Below are positions 18,002 through 25,594 of a stretch of 64,000 nt of DNA, piece by piece. How positions within the stretch are numbered: the stretch's first letter is position 1; each line of letters begins with the position of its first letter. Under the pieces are notes generated by a model that worked only from the letters and a program-made list of their open reading frames with translations, did not search any database and was not told the origin of the DNA. The stretch comes from Cyanidium caldarium (lineage: Eukaryota; Rhodophyta; Bangiophyceae; Cyanidiales; Cyanidiaceae), in NCBI GenBank assembly GCA_026184775.1, contig JANCYW010000009.1, positions 186,001-250,000 of the forward strand. Direction: 5' to 3'. The position numbers and the translations under genes are program-made.

Positions 18002-19573
18002 CTACATCCGCTGCATCGCCGCCGACACTAGCACGGCCGCTACCCGAATAAGCAGAAATGCCCCGATGCAGCGCTCGCTACAGCACCACCGGCGCTGACG
18101 GCCCGACGCGCTGTGCTCTAGCTTGGGCGTCGTCTGTTGCGGCACCAGCCAGAGACGCCGTCCGCATCGATGCACCCGCCGGCCCCACGTCACAATCAGG
18201 ATGAAGAGCATCAGCGTGTCGAGCCACACACATTTGAGAAACAGGTCGGACGAGCGGGGCGTGTGCCTCAGATTGGCCACGATATCGGTCAGCCTGCTTG
18301 CCGATAACGGTGACGCCCCGGCAGGCGATATAGTCAACGCTCGGCGATACTCCTCCATCGGTCGAATAGCATCGAGCGTTTGTGACACGTCCACCTCTTC
18401 CTCGTTCTCCAAACGTCTCCCCAAGATTCTTCCGCCAGCTGCCCACAGACGTCGCAGCGTATCGTCACGTCCGCGTCTGATTGCCCGAGCACGCTCCTCC
18501 TCTTCCCCCGTGCGCCGCAGATCCACATTCTCTCGCATGCCTAGATCCGAGGCCCAGTCCGCGAACAGCGGCAGCAGCAACAACTCCGCAGCAGTCGGTC
18601 TCTCCGGCTCCACCCGCAGACACTGCAGAATCACCCGCATAAAATCGCTATCGTGCAGACAATCCAGCGCCTCCAACAACTCTACTTGGCGTCCTTGCTC
18701 ATCCAACCGTAACACGTCCCCGCAACTGGCGTAAGGCACGCGACCGACGATCAACTCCAGCATCAGCATGCCAAAGGAATACACGTCTGACTTGATGGTG
18801 CAGCGCTCGTAACACATCTCGGGTGCGGCCAGAGCTGGCAGACCCACCACGTGACAGTGGCGGCCGCCGGCATGATGCTGCTCCAAAACCATTCCGAGGT
18901 CGCCCAGTTTCACCGAGCCGGTCTGGCCCACCACCACAAACAGGTTTTCGACCTTCACGTTGCGATGCACCAGCGGCGGCGTCTGCGAGTGCAGCGCCCG
19001 CAGCGCTTGCAGCAGCTCGTAACCCCAACGACGGATCACTCGCAGTTTGAGCGTGTCCAGCTGCTCGATGTAGGTCTTCAGGTTCCCGCTGCAAAAGCGT
19101 TCGGTAATGAGCGTGCTGCCTCGCAGTTGTCCATGCTCGTCGCGCACCTCCCACGCGTCATACAAGTGCACGATATGCAGATGTTGCACTTTGCGCAAGG
19201 CTGCCATCTCGCGCCAGCTGCACTCCTTGGCCGACTTCAGCTCCTCCTCGGCACCGGACGGCGCATGGATGACCACATCATTCCAGGCCACTTCGGTAGC
19301 GTCCACCGTGTCGATGCCCGCATAAACACGTTTGGTGCTGCCCCAGTCTAACAACTGCGAGAGCCGCGCGTACCGCCCGTCGGGAGAGAGCGTGCGGTGC
19401 AGTGAGCCTTATTGGTTGCTACTGATAGCCAGCTGTTCGTATTCTTCAAACGCAGTGTCGACGTCGTCAATGAGTTCCGTCGCTCGGGATTCGGTGGTAC
19501 TATCGTCACGAGCACGATCTCCCCCACTGTCGTTCCTCCTCTTACTCGATTCAGTAGGAGATGCGCCTGTCAT
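18002..19573 (-). CDS. Degenerate WNK-family pseudokinase gene with an in-frame stop near its 5' end
   Basis: From 19408 down to 18002 one frame encodes a WNK-like kinase domain. It keeps the WNK lysine in the glycine loop (GSTKRVY), no lysine in strand 3 (EVAWND), and GDLG. The catalytic loop reads LVHRNVKVEN, so the catalytic Asp is Asn. The same frame continues upstream to an ATG at 19573 (MTGASPTESS), but a TAA at 19409-19411 separates the two parts. The SPDGRY segment after the stop matches the intact WNK gene at 22904, so homology extends beyond any downstream ATG (the first is at 19207, inside the N-lobe). Two hydrophobic segments near the C-terminus could anchor it in a membrane. It may be a decaying copy, translated from a non-ATG codon, or read through. 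Confidence 0.7.
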
Positions 19574-20129
19574 TCGCTCTAACGAACCACACTTGTCAGA
19601 CGAGCCGATTCCACGAACAGTGCGGTCTAAGTACGCGATCCGGCCTCTACCACTTTAGCTGACCCCCGTATACTTGGACCTCGAGTAGCCTCCGCCACGG
19701 CACGCTGGCAACCGTGGCACCCGATAAGCCCGCGAGCGCTCACGAGCGCCCTCGCTATCGCCGACGTCCATAAGACGCCGCACGCGCAACGCACAGAGGC
19801 CGCAGGGCGTTTTCATCGGTCGGTGCTCGGGAGATGCGATCGTCGCGGCCACCACATTCTGCCCTGCTGCCTCTGCAGCTGCCGGCACGCGCCTCCGGAC
19901 AAGCAGATTTTGCGGTATCGACCGATCTCGCAGGCATAGATGGAGTCGCCTATCCTGCCGGTGCAGTGACTTCTCTGCGAGCCCTCGGACCATGATTTTC
20001 CCTTGTTCTGTACCTTCATGCCACTCGCGAGTACTCTCCCTCCCATTTTCTGCTCCCCCGTGGCCCATATCCCCCTTTACGAACGTATATCCTACATTTT
20101 GCGCCCTTCACTACCGACACCCACCCTCC
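19574..20129. other. Intergenic region between the WNK-like pseudokinase and the MscS-like gene
   Basis: About 556 bp; both neighbours are on the minus strand. Frames in both strands show no domain. A minus-strand stretch at about 19641-19662 resembles a tRNA A box but has no matching acceptor stem or T arm nearby. A C/T-rich run occurs at about 20030-20120, just past the 3' end of the channel gene. Confidence 0.4.
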
Positions 20130-21545
20130 TCATGCGGCGCCCGGTGTTTGCAACTGCGTTCCGCTCATGCCGCTCTCGACGATGCGCACCGGAAGGGCAA
20201 AGTCGGCGCCCTCGGCACGGATGCAGTCGCTGATGCCGATCAGCGCCAGCTGTTGTCGTTCCATAAAGCGACCGCCGTCGGTGTCGTCGAAGAAGCAGCT
20301 GGCCTGGATCTGCAGCGCATACTCGGTGTAGCCGACGAAATGCACCGACACGGAGGAACGATCCACCGACGGCAGCGACTCCAGCAACTCCTGTATGCGC
20401 GTCACGATGCGCTCCACCTTGTCGATATCCATATACCGGACGCCGAATGTGTGCGCGAAACGCCGCTGGGTGATGCGCGAGCCATTGGTCAGGCGTTCAT
20501 TCACCAGCTGCGAGTTGGGTATCCAGGTTGGTCGACCGTCTGGTCCGATCAGCTCGGTCTTGTAGAAGCCGATGGTGCGCACGGTGCCAGCGACACCCAG
20601 CGCGTTCAGCTGCACCGATTCGCCGGGCGCAAACGGCGCTCCTACGGCCAACATGAACCCGCTGATGAAGTTCTTGGCCAGCTCCTGCGCCGCCAAACCG
20701 ACCGCCAATCCGCCAATACCCCCAAAGGCCAGCACCGAGCGCAGCGGCACCCCAGTAAACTCGACGCACAGCAGGAACGCCACGACGGTCACGAACATGC
20801 TGGCGATGCGACCGAGCACAAACTTTTGGCTCGCCGACAGCTCCGTCTGTTCCAGCAGAAACCAGTTGATCAGCGACTGCACGACATACCCGGCAAAGCC
20901 GATCTGCGCCACGCTGGATATGGCATGCGGCAGCGCTGGCGACACCGTCAAGCCTATGCGCGCCGCCGCCACTACCCCTATCTGCAGCACCATGACCACC
21001 ACCCGCACCAGCAGAAACAGGCCCACGCTGCGCTCAAGCGCATCTAGCCAGCGTTGGAGGCCGTGTTCGTCCTCGGGAATCAGCAGTGCGGTCGCCATGC
21101 CCGCCAACCGCTCGCGTCCGGGCTTCAATACCCGCAGCCCCACAAAGCGCACCGTTTGGCGATAGGTGAGAAAGAGGAACAGCGTGAGCAGCACGTCTGA
21201 GTAGGTGAAAGCGGCCAGCGCCGTGGACCGGCCGCCTAGACACACCGGTGTGGACAATAAATCCACCACAGACCGTTCCGACCCCAACACGGCCCTGACC
21301 ACTGGCCACGACCGCCACGACTTCCACGCCGGTGCACCGGTCATGGCGAGGTCGGCCTGCGCTGGCTTCGCCAAGCGCAGGCCGATCCATGCGGGTGGTT
21401 TCGTCGGCCGCAGCGCCCGCGCGCGCGGTAGGCACCGCGGGCGAGTACTGTGCTCCCAGCGCACTCGCGAGGTGGACGATCCCAGCCGCACATCCCTTGA
21501 TAGCGAAGAGAGACGACCAGGTGTTACGAAAGATGTTGTGTTCAT
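20130..21545 (-). CDS. MscS-like mechanosensitive ion channel, probably organellar
   Basis: A 471-residue protein. The first 60 residues are Arg/Ser rich and look like a plastid or mitochondrial targeting peptide. Several membrane spans follow, then the pore-helix and beta-domain signature of MscS: FGGIGGLAVGLAAQELAKN, then FISGFMLAVGAPFAPGESV, and the strand region TWIPNSQLVNERLTN. The C-terminal alpha/beta cap is present. Organellar MscS proteins (MSL1-3 in plants) release osmolytes under hypo-osmotic stress. The start is the first ATG. The gene lies between the two WNK-family genes. Confidence 0.92.
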   Translation of the reverse strand: MNTTSFVTPGRLSSLSRDVRLGSSTSRVRWEHSTRPRCLPRARALRPTKPPAWIGLRLAKPAQADLAMTGAPAWKSWRSWPVVRAVLGSERSVVDLLSTPVCLGGRSTALAAFTYSDVLLTLFLFLTYRQTVRFVGLRVLKPGRERLAGMATALLIPEDEHGLQRWLDALERSVGLFLLVRVVVMVLQIGVVAAARIGLTVSPALPHAISSVAQIGFAGYVVQSLINWFLLEQTELSASQKFVLGRIASMFVTVVAFLLCVEFTGVPLRSVLAFGGIGGLAVGLAAQELAKNFISGFMLAVGAPFAPGESVQLNALGVAGTVRTIGFYKTELIGPDGRPTWIPNSQLVNERLTNGSRITQRRFAHTFGVRYMDIDKVERIVTRIQELLESLPSVDRSSVSVHFVGYTEYALQIQASCFFDDTDGGRFMERQQLALIGISDCIRAEGADFALPVRIVESGMSGTQLQTPGAA

Positions 21546-22172
21546 GAAGGGGTACTTTTTTCACGATGGACCCGTTCGCAGCGACCACACGATAGAGCGT
21601 ATCGAGTGACGATGCGTTCCGACGCGAGCCCGCGCGCACCCCACACGAATGCACGCGGGCATCCCGGCAGCGGTAAGCGATCACTCTTTCAGTGCAACCG
21701 GAGGCGATGCGAATAGGAGTGGGTGGACCATACAAAAGCTCTCAACTGCCTCTAATGGGTGGATTGCATGATGCAGACGGACTTGCCACTCTTTTTGCTT
21801 CTCAGCTCTTCCAGACAACGAGTAAATCGTGGCGATCTCGGACTCTCTCCCCCACGCAATACTTGAAACGATCACGTCCGTTTCCTCCACTTCCCCTCGG
21901 TTGCTTGACACGTCTTCCTGTGGCTCCGCATCCACCTCTCCCGTGTCAGGTGTTCTCGCGTTCCGCACTTCCCGTTCCCCGATTTCGGCGTGCGTGCGTC
22001 GCCGACGCCATCGGAAGATCCGTCGCGCGCGGCGCGGCCCGCTGAGGATTTTTTCGGGACCGTTGCGCTTTCGCGTGTTGACGTTGGCGGGGCCCGGGCG
22101 CGCTCACCCCTCCAAGCGCGTCCACCCTACGCAGTTGCCTCCGCGCTTCGTCGCGATCTATCACTCAACCAG
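21546..22172. promoter_or_regulatory. Divergent intergenic region between the MscS-like gene and the small helical-repeat gene
   Basis: About 627 bp between two start codons pointing away from each other, so it must hold both promoters and 5' UTRs. The plus-strand frame is open upstream of 22173 but without an ATG. No regulatory motif was recognised. Confidence 0.4.
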
Positions 22173-22903: not shown

Positions 22904-25594
22904 TCACGTGGCGCCGCGCTCGGCGGCACTCGAATCCGCCGGCACGCCCGCATTCCTAGCTCCCGTGCCCGGTTCCAACTCCCCGTCCGAGGTGCGACTC
23001 GACAGTTCGATGCTCTCGCCGAAAGCCGACCACTCGGTCGTCGGCTGCTGCTGCATCGCGCCCTCGCTCGATGTCGCCGTCGACGACGACACGTTGTGCG
23101 GCTTGATCGCCGACGCACTCGCGGCATCCAGCGACGTGCGCGAGCTGCTGGGCGGTCGCGAATCGCCGGCGCGCACGCTCGCCGACTGCCCGTAGATCAA
23201 GTGCACCAGCTCGGACGGGTCCAACTGTCGCGACGCGTCGGCGGCCGTCACCCCGTTCCCCTCCGACGCCGCCTCCGCGACCGCCGACAGATGCGCCGGC
23301 GCGGACGTCGACGACGGCAATACGAGTCCCGGCATCGGCTCCGAAGTGGCCCGCGGCGATGGCGATGGCGTCGGCAGCTGAGCGCTCCATCGAGCCGCCG
23401 ATTCCCGCGCTGTCTGCGGCATCGCCGAGGTGGCAGCACGAATCTGCTCCTGCAGCCCCGGCTGTTCGTTGCGGGTCATGGTGCGCTCGACGGGCGTCAC
23501 CACGCACTCCACGCCCTCGGATATCGATGCCGATCGATGCAGGTCACCGGCGACTGCCATCGACATCGCCGATGGCGATACCGCGTGCGCCGCGGCGGAG
23601 GCGGCGGTCGGCGTCGGCCCCGGGGTGACCTCCTCGCCGGCCTGCGTGTCCACCACCACCACGGTCGGCGGTCGTTGCGCCGGCATCAGCGGCCGCATCC
23701 TCGCGTCGCTGACTGCCCCGGTGACCGCCGCGGCCAACTCGCCCGAAAAGGCGCCACTGCGCGAATACGACGGCGCCGGGCGCGCCTCATCGCTCGCCTC
23801 GGTGGGCGTGTCCGCTGTCGTGGCCACGTGCACCTGCCGCTCGATCTCCCGGCAGATATCATCCAGCTGCGACGTCGGCAGTCGGAGCTCTTCCACCATC
23901 TCGCGCGCAACCTCCTGCGTCGATTCGCGTTCCGGATCGAAAGCGAACTTGATGCTCTTCATGCAGTCATCGATCGGCACCTCCAGGCACAACAGCAAGC
24001 TCGAGCTGGTGGCGTCCGCACGATCGCACTCAAAGCGCTTCAGCCGCTCCAGACGCATCTCTGGCGCGCCCCGATCGATGTCGTTCACATCAGACGTCGT
24101 GTTACCACCGTCGGGCGTCGGCGCCAGCTCCAAATCACAAATATCCTCGGTGCTGGCGTTGCTGGTCGGCCACGGCCGTTTCACTCCGGTCTCGCCAGCG
24201 CCAATCGATGGCGCGTCAATCACGTGCACCACCGGGGCGGCGACAGCGGCCTCGGCCCGAAGAGCGTGTGCTCCCTGCACCGATCCGCCGCTGGTGGCGG
24301 TCGCTACCCCCAACGACGGTCGCGACGGCGGCGGCGCTGTCGCCTGCATGTACACGCTCGACGAGGACGATGACGCCTGTGAGACCCGATTCGGTCGCGC
24401 GGCGTTCACGTGATAGGTGACGATCGAAATCGTGTCGCCAGGCACCTCCGCCATCCCCTCCAGCGAATTGCGCGAGGCGTATCGCGAGCTGGGCGATATC
24501 GACCGCTTGGGGCTGGCGGTGCCGCTGCGTGAGCGCCCGTCACCGTGACCGGACAGCATCAGGTCTCGATTTTCAGCCACACCATCATCCGATTCCCAGT
24601 CGATAAACAGTGGCAACTGCAACAGCTGCGCGGCCGATGGCCGCTGCGCCTCCGGCTGCAGGCACTGTAAGATCACCTCCTTGAACGGGCCGTCGCGTAT
24701 TCGGTTCAGCACCTCGGGCTGCACGCCGTTCAGCACTTTTTTGAAGATCTGACCGGCATTGTCACACTCCGCATACGGATACTCCATGCTGACCATCTCC
24801 AACATGCACATGCCGAACGCGTAAATGTCCACCTTCTCGCTGTAGTCCTCGTCGTACAGCTCGGGTGCCATAAACTCTGGCGTGCCGATTACCGTGTACC
24901 CGCCCTTGCTGGCCTTGTCTTTCACGGCGCTCAGCCCGAGGTCGCCGATCTTCACTTCGCCCACGTTGCCGTTGATAAAAATGTTGTCGCACTTGAGGTC
25001 GCGATGCATAACGGGTGGCGTGCGCGAGTGCAGGTAATTGATCGCCTCCAGCACATTGCGGCACCACCTTCGGATCACTTTCAGCTTCAACGTCTTCACC
25101 TTGGTCATGTACTGTTTCAACGTGCCGCTGGTCATCAGTTCGGTGATGAAGTCGGCGCCGCGGATGCGCCCGCGCTCGTCGCGCTCCTCCCACCCGCAGA
25201 ATAGGTTGATAATGTTCGGGTGTTGCAACGTGCGCAGGATCTGCATCTCGTTGACCACTTTCTCAGCATCCCGGTCGCTCATCCGCGACACATTCAGCTT
25301 GTTCCACGCCACCTCGATGGCCTGGTCGGTGTCGAACGCCTTGTAGACGGCCTTGTAGGCGCCGCGACCGAGCATCTCGTCGAAGCGAATATACCGCCCG
25401 TCCGGCGAGCGCTCCTCAAAGTCACCAAACGCCGCGTCTGACGGTCGCCGCTCGTGAGGTGACGTTCGCTGCGGGGCGTCGCCGCCGGTTGTAGCAACCC
25501 TGGTGGCGTCTGCTGGCGGCGCGGGGCCGACGCCGCGCGCCTCCTCCCCGCCCGCTCCCTCCGCCTCCCGTGTCGATCGTTCCCCCACCTCCAT
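22904..25594 (-). CDS. WNK-family serine/threonine kinase
   Basis: An 896-residue protein. The kinase domain covers about residues 68-335. The Lys in GRGAYKAVYKAFD replaces the usual strand-3 lysine (IEVAWNKL), which defines the WNK class. The catalytic loop VMHRDLKCDN, the GDLG motif and the activation segment TVIGTPEFMAPE are intact. After a long disordered part, a stretch around 540-600 (CMKSIKFAFDPERE, then MVEELRLPTSQLDDICREI) resembles the PF2-like autoinhibitory domain of WNKs. WNK kinases respond to chloride and osmotic stress, and in plants also act in clock and ABA signalling. The targets here are unknown. The start at 25594 is the first ATG of the frame. Confidence 0.93.
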   Translation of the reverse strand: MEVGERSTREAEGAGGEEARGVGPAPPADATRVATTGGDAPQRTSPHERRPSDAAFGDFEERSPDGRYIRFDEMLGRGAYKAVYKAFDTDQAIEVAWNKLNVSRMSDRDAEKVVNEMQILRTLQHPNIINLFCGWEERDERGRIRGADFITELMTSGTLKQYMTKVKTLKLKVIRRWCRNVLEAINYLHSRTPPVMHRDLKCDNIFINGNVGEVKIGDLGLSAVKDKASKGGYTVIGTPEFMAPELYDEDYSEKVDIYAFGMCMLEMVSMEYPYAECDNAGQIFKKVLNGVQPEVLNRIRDGPFKEVILQCLQPEAQRPSAAQLLQLPLFIDWESDDGVAENRDLMLSGHGDGRSRSGTASPKRSISPSSRYASRNSLEGMAEVPGDTISIVTYHVNAARPNRVSQASSSSSSVYMQATAPPPSRPSLGVATATSGGSVQGAHALRAEAAVAAPVVHVIDAPSIGAGETGVKRPWPTSNASTEDICDLELAPTPDGGNTTSDVNDIDRGAPEMRLERLKRFECDRADATSSSLLLCLEVPIDDCMKSIKFAFDPERESTQEVAREMVEELRLPTSQLDDICREIERQVHVATTADTPTEASDEARPAPSYSRSGAFSGELAAAVTGAVSDARMRPLMPAQRPPTVVVVDTQAGEEVTPGPTPTAASAAAHAVSPSAMSMAVAGDLHRSASISEGVECVVTPVERTMTRNEQPGLQEQIRAATSAMPQTARESAARWSAQLPTPSPSPRATSEPMPGLVLPSSTSAPAHLSAVAEAASEGNGVTAADASRQLDPSELVHLIYGQSASVRAGDSRPPSSSRTSLDAASASAIKPHNVSSSTATSSEGAMQQQPTTEWSAFGESIELSSRTSDGELEPGTGARNAGVPADSSAAERGAT

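Follow-up and report, generated by a model that had tools for sequence, protein, structure and literature searches.

A putative WNK-derived pseudokinase gene with an in-frame stop codon, near the intact WNK gene of the red alga Cyanidium caldarium

WNKs are salt-sensing kinases whose defining trait is a catalytic lysine located in the glycine loop instead of strand beta3 (VAW[CN]). Loss of the catalytic aspartate with retention of the DFG aspartate is found in the pseudokinase ErbB3, which also reads HRN in its catalytic loop. The glycine-loop lysine as a hallmark of WNKs is consistent with the account in PMC12266122, where NRBP1 is presented as a WNK-related pseudokinase recently shown to activate WNK signalling in animals and able to activate WNK4 in vitro. 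According to that account, NRBP1 is modelled to heterodimerise with WNK1 and carries a CCT domain, but none of the VAIK, HRD and DFG motifs (PMC12266122). NRBPs are described as metazoan proteins that other eukaryotes lack (PMC12254500). No red-algal WNK pseudokinase was found in the titles or abstract openings of the open-licence papers listed.

The locus considered here belongs to Cyanidium caldarium, a hot-spring red alga. It was analysed within a window of 64,000 nt, that is, the whole stretch of DNA under study (GC 64.9%), and against a genome of 8,787,356 bases in 20 contigs. For C. caldarium 063 E5, Table 1 of the genome report gives 8.79 Mb, 20 scaffolds, 65.7% GC and 4,870 annotated proteins (PMC9812998); size and contig number are also tabulated for a C. 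caldarium genome in PMC13353863. The features are the following.

22904-25594, minus strand: intact WNK paralogue, 896 residues, HRDLKCDN (open reading frame, Pfam and genome search, leader alignment)
20130-21560, minus strand: MscS-type mechanosensitive channel gene (Pfam search)
19412-19573, minus strand: 54-codon leader with ATG at 19573, in frame with the kinase part, resembling the WNK N-terminal leader (local alignment)
19408-19545, minus strand: intron candidate of 138 nt, GTAAGA...AATAAG, that removes the TAA and keeps SPDGRY; judged unlikely (GT-AG scan)
19409-19411, minus strand: in-frame TAA, within about 14 codons absent from the intact WNK
18002-19408, minus strand: open frame of 468 codons and its stop, with a WNK-type pseudokinase domain from residue 7 to about residue 300, a linker and two hydrophobic segments (open reading frame, Pfam, structure-sequence search)
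19205-19207, minus strand: first ATG past the TAA, residue 68, context GAG ATG G (alignment, context reading)
18944-18967, minus strand: catalytic loop HRNVKVEN, with Asn at the position of the catalytic Asp (sequence, alignment)
18893-18904, minus strand: GDLG, metal-binding DLG kept (sequence)
18188-18244, minus strand: hydrophobic segment 1, residues 389-407, possible membrane span (Kyte-Doolittle)
18014-18070, minus strand: hydrophobic segment 2, residues 447-465, possible membrane span (Kyte-Doolittle)

The MscS-type channel gene sits between the intact WNK and the pseudokinase, and all three genes share a strand. It could be speculated that this position reflects function.

The ancestry of the pseudokinase is well marked. 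Its frame matches the Pfam Pkinase model (E=8.9e-28, residues 24-280 counted from the TAA), and the best match among solved structures is WNK1 (4pwn, E=1.1e-44); WNK1 and WNK3 make up the best 15 of the 60 matches listed, the next being PAK1 at 1.6e-14. Its closest relative within its own genome is the WNK at 22904-25594 (E=1.6e-73, 44%), followed by a match at 1.7e-10. A kinase tree was built from 21 rows (20 different). They comprise the pseudokinase, the Cyanidium WNK, WNK1 and WNK3, together with 17 further kinase loci from the same genome as the pseudokinase, of which two are identical. In this tree, where two WNKs are non-algal, the four WNK rows form one group (100/100), and the pseudokinase is sister to the Cyanidium WNK (96/90) on a branch about five times longer (1.31 versus 0.27). 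Because the references are two metazoan WNKs, the duplication can be dated only to after the split from metazoan WNKs. Kinase-domain identity is 45.9% to the Cyanidium WNK, 39.5% to WNK1 (215 aligned positions) and 36.8% to WNK3 (261 aligned). A search for further relatives gave 1 pattern match in viral contigs and 18 in genome contigs, none of which was confirmed by tblastn.

The motifs present a mixed picture. In place of the HRD of an active WNK, the catalytic loop at 18967-18944 reads HRNVKVEN. By contrast, GDLG is kept at 18904-18893, LAAPE is present, and STKRVY and EVAWN align to SFKTVY and EVAWC of WNK1, which puts the lysine in the glycine loop and not in strand beta3. The glycine loop itself reads DWG in place of GRG, and the activation segment GLPALAAPE corresponds to GTPEFMAPE of WNKs. 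In addition, the activation-loop serine or threonine phosphosite that precedes GTPEF is absent (pseudokinase HVVGLPALAAPE, Cyanidium WNK YTVIGTPEFMAPE, WNK1 KSVIGTPEFMAPE). The two C-terminal segments have Kyte-Doolittle means over 19 residues of 2.13 and 2.29. A structure prediction from a two-row alignment had a mean pLDDT of 33.2 and was not used. Judged by sequence, both the WNK origin and the loss of the catalytic residue are solid. The sequence-only reading, which had proposed a WNK-derived pseudokinase with Asn for the catalytic Asp, a retained GDLG and glycine-loop lysine, and two hydrophobic segments at its C-terminus, is thus confirmed in its description of the protein.

The same reading had described a TAA that splits the frame, about 450 open codons behind it and WNK homology reaching upstream of the first downstream ATG, and these points also hold. 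The stop is real in this sequence: TAA 19409-19411 shares its frame with ATG 19573, 54 codons upstream, and with the downstream kinase part, where 468 codons remain open up to the stop at 18002-18004 (chance about 1.5e-7 at the local base composition). Homology to WNK1 begins at residue 7 past the TAA, in the segment LSPDGRY, while the first ATG is residue 68. A single assembly indel that hides an ATG in another frame was rejected, because an ATG from which translation would run on into the kinase is missing from both of the other frames over 19412-19573; frame +1 lacks a Met downstream of its stop, and frame +2 contains several stops.

In a search that skipped simple repeats, the stretch 19380-20130 matched nothing else in the genome at E<=0.01, and a mobile insertion as the cause of the interruption was rejected on this ground. 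An exact 11-base direct repeat, TCACTGCACCG, occurs on the minus strand at 19395-19405 and 19959-19969, 564 bases apart, which is a multiple of three. One copy lies just past the TAA, where WNK homology resumes. Under a Markov model, such a repeat is expected with a frequency of 1.6% so near the junction and of 10% anywhere in the stretch.

Upstream of the stop, the leader is collinear with that of the intact WNK, with a local alignment score of 45. A score of at least 45 was reached in 0.0016 of 5,000 residue shuffles and in 0.001 of 5,000 open Markov sequences. Among 210 non-overlapping in-frame pieces of 54 residues from 24 other ORFs of the window, one scored higher (58) and the next reached 37; none of the 24 N-terminal pieces of these ORFs attained 45. 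Depending on the null, a resemblance of this degree would thus have a probability of 0.001-0.005, and the likeness noticed earlier between FEEYEQL and FGDFEE of the intact gene stands. The other two frames over the leader show no similarity to the WNK leader by alignment.

The composition of the leader points the other way. Its GC3 (0.50) is below that of all 40 ORF starts examined, and its GC (0.525) is below that of all 49 upstream flanks examined, although the ORFs used for comparison were selected on length and composition, not every one of them is a proven gene, and the set of 49 includes the pseudokinase frame from ATG 19207. Low GC3 is partly a habit of the gene itself, as its linker has 0.57 and the lowest of its 414 windows of 54 codons has 0.54; the contradiction is therefore softened, but not removed. 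We infer that the leader is the true N-terminus.

Past constraint extends across the kinase domain and includes the part before the first ATG. At sites where the Cyanidium WNK equals rat WNK1, the pseudokinase keeps 15 of 21 before this ATG and 58 of 104 after it. This bears out the earlier view that the gene is not in simple decay. Identity at codon positions 1, 2 and 3 is 0.52, 0.59 and 0.43 before the ATG, where the 54 codons are few, and 0.55, 0.68 and 0.48 over the 242 codons after it, position 2 exceeding position 3. The stretch from the TAA to the first ATG has a GC3 of 0.81 and a codon score of 0.206, and the C-terminal tail has a low codon score of 0.028. As the stretch before the ATG is as well kept as the rest, it was probably translated for most of the history of the gene, whose start would thus have been upstream of ATG 19207 for most of that time.

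The reading we prefer, tentatively and at slightly less than an even chance, is that a lineage-specific WNK duplicate became a pseudokinase, probably membrane-tethered, whose frame was cut in the extra linker by a recent nonsense change or a sequence error. The WNK gene would have been duplicated nearby in the Cyanidium lineage, and in one copy HRD would have become HRN, so that the catalytic residue was lost, while the glycine and activation loops changed as well. This copy, which carries the hydrophobic C-terminal segments, would have evolved fast, yet under constraint. Since DLG and the glycine-loop lysine are kept and two hydrophobic segments are present, its product would most plausibly dimerise with the neighbouring WNK and tune it as a membrane-tethered partner; this role is suggested by analogy. 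In the sequenced strain, a frame made up of ATG 19573, leader, linker and kinase domain would have been cut by one TAA in the extra linker, most likely because that strain recently underwent a nonsense change or because an error persists in the sequence. The simplest reading of the stop, which would accordingly be young, is that a long-constrained gene was interrupted recently.

A broken frame elsewhere in the assembly, in a kinase on contig C17, was counted in favour of this interruption, while the GC3 and GC of the leader, the one control piece that scored 58, above 45, and the in-phase intron candidate were counted against it. In the C17 gene (L030, G000:C17:263000-267000), the coding sequence near the DFG region is split between three frames, and no intron signal is visible; the gene may be broken, or indel errors may have persisted in the assembly. 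In the same genome, two kinase loci about 10.8 kb apart (L001, G000:C6:447189-447944, and L002, 457978-458733) are 99.95% identical over 3,756 bases, as expected from either a very recent duplication or an assembly repeat.

Alternatively, the TAA could be genuine and fixed, with the kinase part translated by read-through of the stop or from a non-AUG codon just past it, which we regard as rather unlikely. The kinase homology that starts at residue 7, the GC3 of the stretch between the TAA and the first ATG and the constrained N-lobe would all fit such expression. Only two near-cognate codons lie between the TAA and SPDGRY, CTG 19402 (T at -3, C at +4) and ACG 19393 (C at both), and their contexts are poor for initiation. 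Similarly, TAA followed by G is not known as a strong read-through context, which counts against the first of these routes. Polycistronic transcripts are reported to carry about 14.5% of Cyanidium genes (PMC9812998); initiation may therefore be flexible in this alga, which speaks for the second route.

The gene could also be intact if an intron removed the stop. No plausible GT-AG intron had been recognised in the sequence-only reading, and here that reading has to be corrected: a scan that paired donors from 20150 onwards with each of four possible acceptors revealed 19545-19408, in the right phase. Exon 1 would then be 28 nt long and the spliced protein would begin MTGASPTESSSLHRTLSPDGRY. 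The donor is the sole GTAAG in about 750 nt upstream, and only 4-12% of Markov sequences contain, by chance, a GTAAG candidate in phase with an ATG. Its length and its GC of 0.522 are near those of seven introns recognised in this genome. Of its branch-like 7-mers, the nearest to ACTAACC are ACGAACA (19440) and AGCAACC, with two mismatches each, the former at a normal distance from the acceptor.

For C. caldarium 063 E5, the genome report gives 44 introns in its table, which is followed here, and 46 in its text (PMC9812998). In C. merolae, the donor motif is GUAAGU (PMC8831791), and the branch motif ACTAACC was found in 26 of 26 known introns (PMC2483917), which tells against the candidate. 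Genome-wide, nine GTAAGT...ACTAAC pairs were found at short spacing, with C as the next base in all nine (ACTAACC). With the sixth donor base left free, 11 pairs were listed (10 GTAAGT, one GTAAGC and no GTAAGA), and a longer spacing gave two pairs, one of them already among those at shorter spacing. Reversed-pattern controls gave 14, 10 and 0, respectively. These counts alone prove nothing, because they are not above the controls and the searches presuppose the motifs, so that variants lacking GTAAG or ACTAACC would escape; it is the joins that carry support. Seven of 12 distinct cases were judged by eye to read clearly across the join, the five left out being L027, L043, L050 and a pair of adjacent introns from a single gene. 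For the PEPCK, CTP synthase, NADH dehydrogenase G-like, ubiquitin-conjugating and EF-hand proteins, the Pfam domain continues over the join; for the Band_7 and NF-Y-like proteins, it starts roughly there. All seven acceptors are CAG or TAG, 20-59 nt past the branch motif.

These compact introns (L023, L024, L025, L026, L028, L029 and L049; GTAAGT, ACTAACC and YAG; 84-132 nt; GC 0.53-0.72) are a usable starting set for a splice model of the C. caldarium genome. The 138-nt candidate departs from their pattern, with GTAAGA as donor, no CTAAC and AAG as acceptor, and is for this reason not favoured; it would also turn the similarity of the leader to WNK into a coincidence. Thus, as an intron it is possible but not likely, and an intact gene that depends on it seems to us quite unlikely. 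A consensus intron upstream of SPDGRY was rejected, as 19400-20150 contains neither GTAAGT nor CTAAC.

It is equally doubtful, and in our view improbable, that the present product is simply truncated, starting at ATG 19207 and comprising the C-lobe and the hydrophobic segments in 401 residues, without the stretch aligned to the WNK glycine loop and VAW strand. The start contexts are in line with such a product, with G at -3 and G at +4 for ATG 19207 and C and A for ATG 19573, and kidney-specific WNK1 is a natural WNK form that lacks most of the kinase domain. Nevertheless, the share of conserved sites that are kept is no lower before ATG 19207 than after it, which makes a long-standing start at this ATG unlikely. 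Finally, a decaying duplicate devoid of function would agree with the long branch, the in-frame stop and the low codon score of the tail, but is very unlikely given the 468 open codons, the codon-position bias and coding score across most of the kinase domain, and a mean intergenic distance of 319.7 bp in C. caldarium (PMC9812998), at which dead DNA is expected to be lost.

Beyond the interruption itself, the locus might represent a second, independent and non-animal invention of a WNK-derived pseudokinase that partners WNK. The protein would be tethered to a membrane, its gene would be separated from that of its WNK by a few kilobases that include a mechanosensitive channel gene, and its expression would be non-canonical at the leader stop codon (by read-through, a non-AUG start or a degenerate intron). 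We consider this combination doubtful. If it were true, an independent WNK pseudokinase beside a WNK in a free-living red alga would suggest that WNKs repeatedly acquire catalytically dead partners, and an alga with 4,870 annotated proteins (PMC9812998) would be a minimal system in which to test this idea.

Compared with known systems, the algal protein shares with ErbB3 an asparagine at the position of the catalytic aspartate and a retained DFG or DLG aspartate, although ErbB3 belongs to an unrelated kinase family. Like WNK1 and WNK3, it keeps the glycine-loop lysine, DLG, APE and the N-terminal DGRY/DGRF segment; unlike them, it has HRN, DWG for GRG, GLPALAAPE for GTPEFMAPE, a hydrophobic C-terminus and an interrupted 5' end. 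With NRBP1 and NRBP2 it has in common that it is a WNK-related pseudokinase. In contrast to NRBP1, it keeps DLG and the WNK lysine, and its sister is the alga's own WNK in a tree whose rows contain no NRBP. No CCT (OSR1_C-like) domain was matched in it by Pfam at E<=0.01; the one OSR1_C-like match of the genome at E<=1 belongs to the intact WNK and, at E=0.003, falls short of the curated cut-off, with an E. coli control matching only weakly. As NRBPs are reported only from Metazoa, the algal WNK pseudokinase would be an independent case, and its origin looks independent; the nearest functional parallel is metazoan NRBP1.
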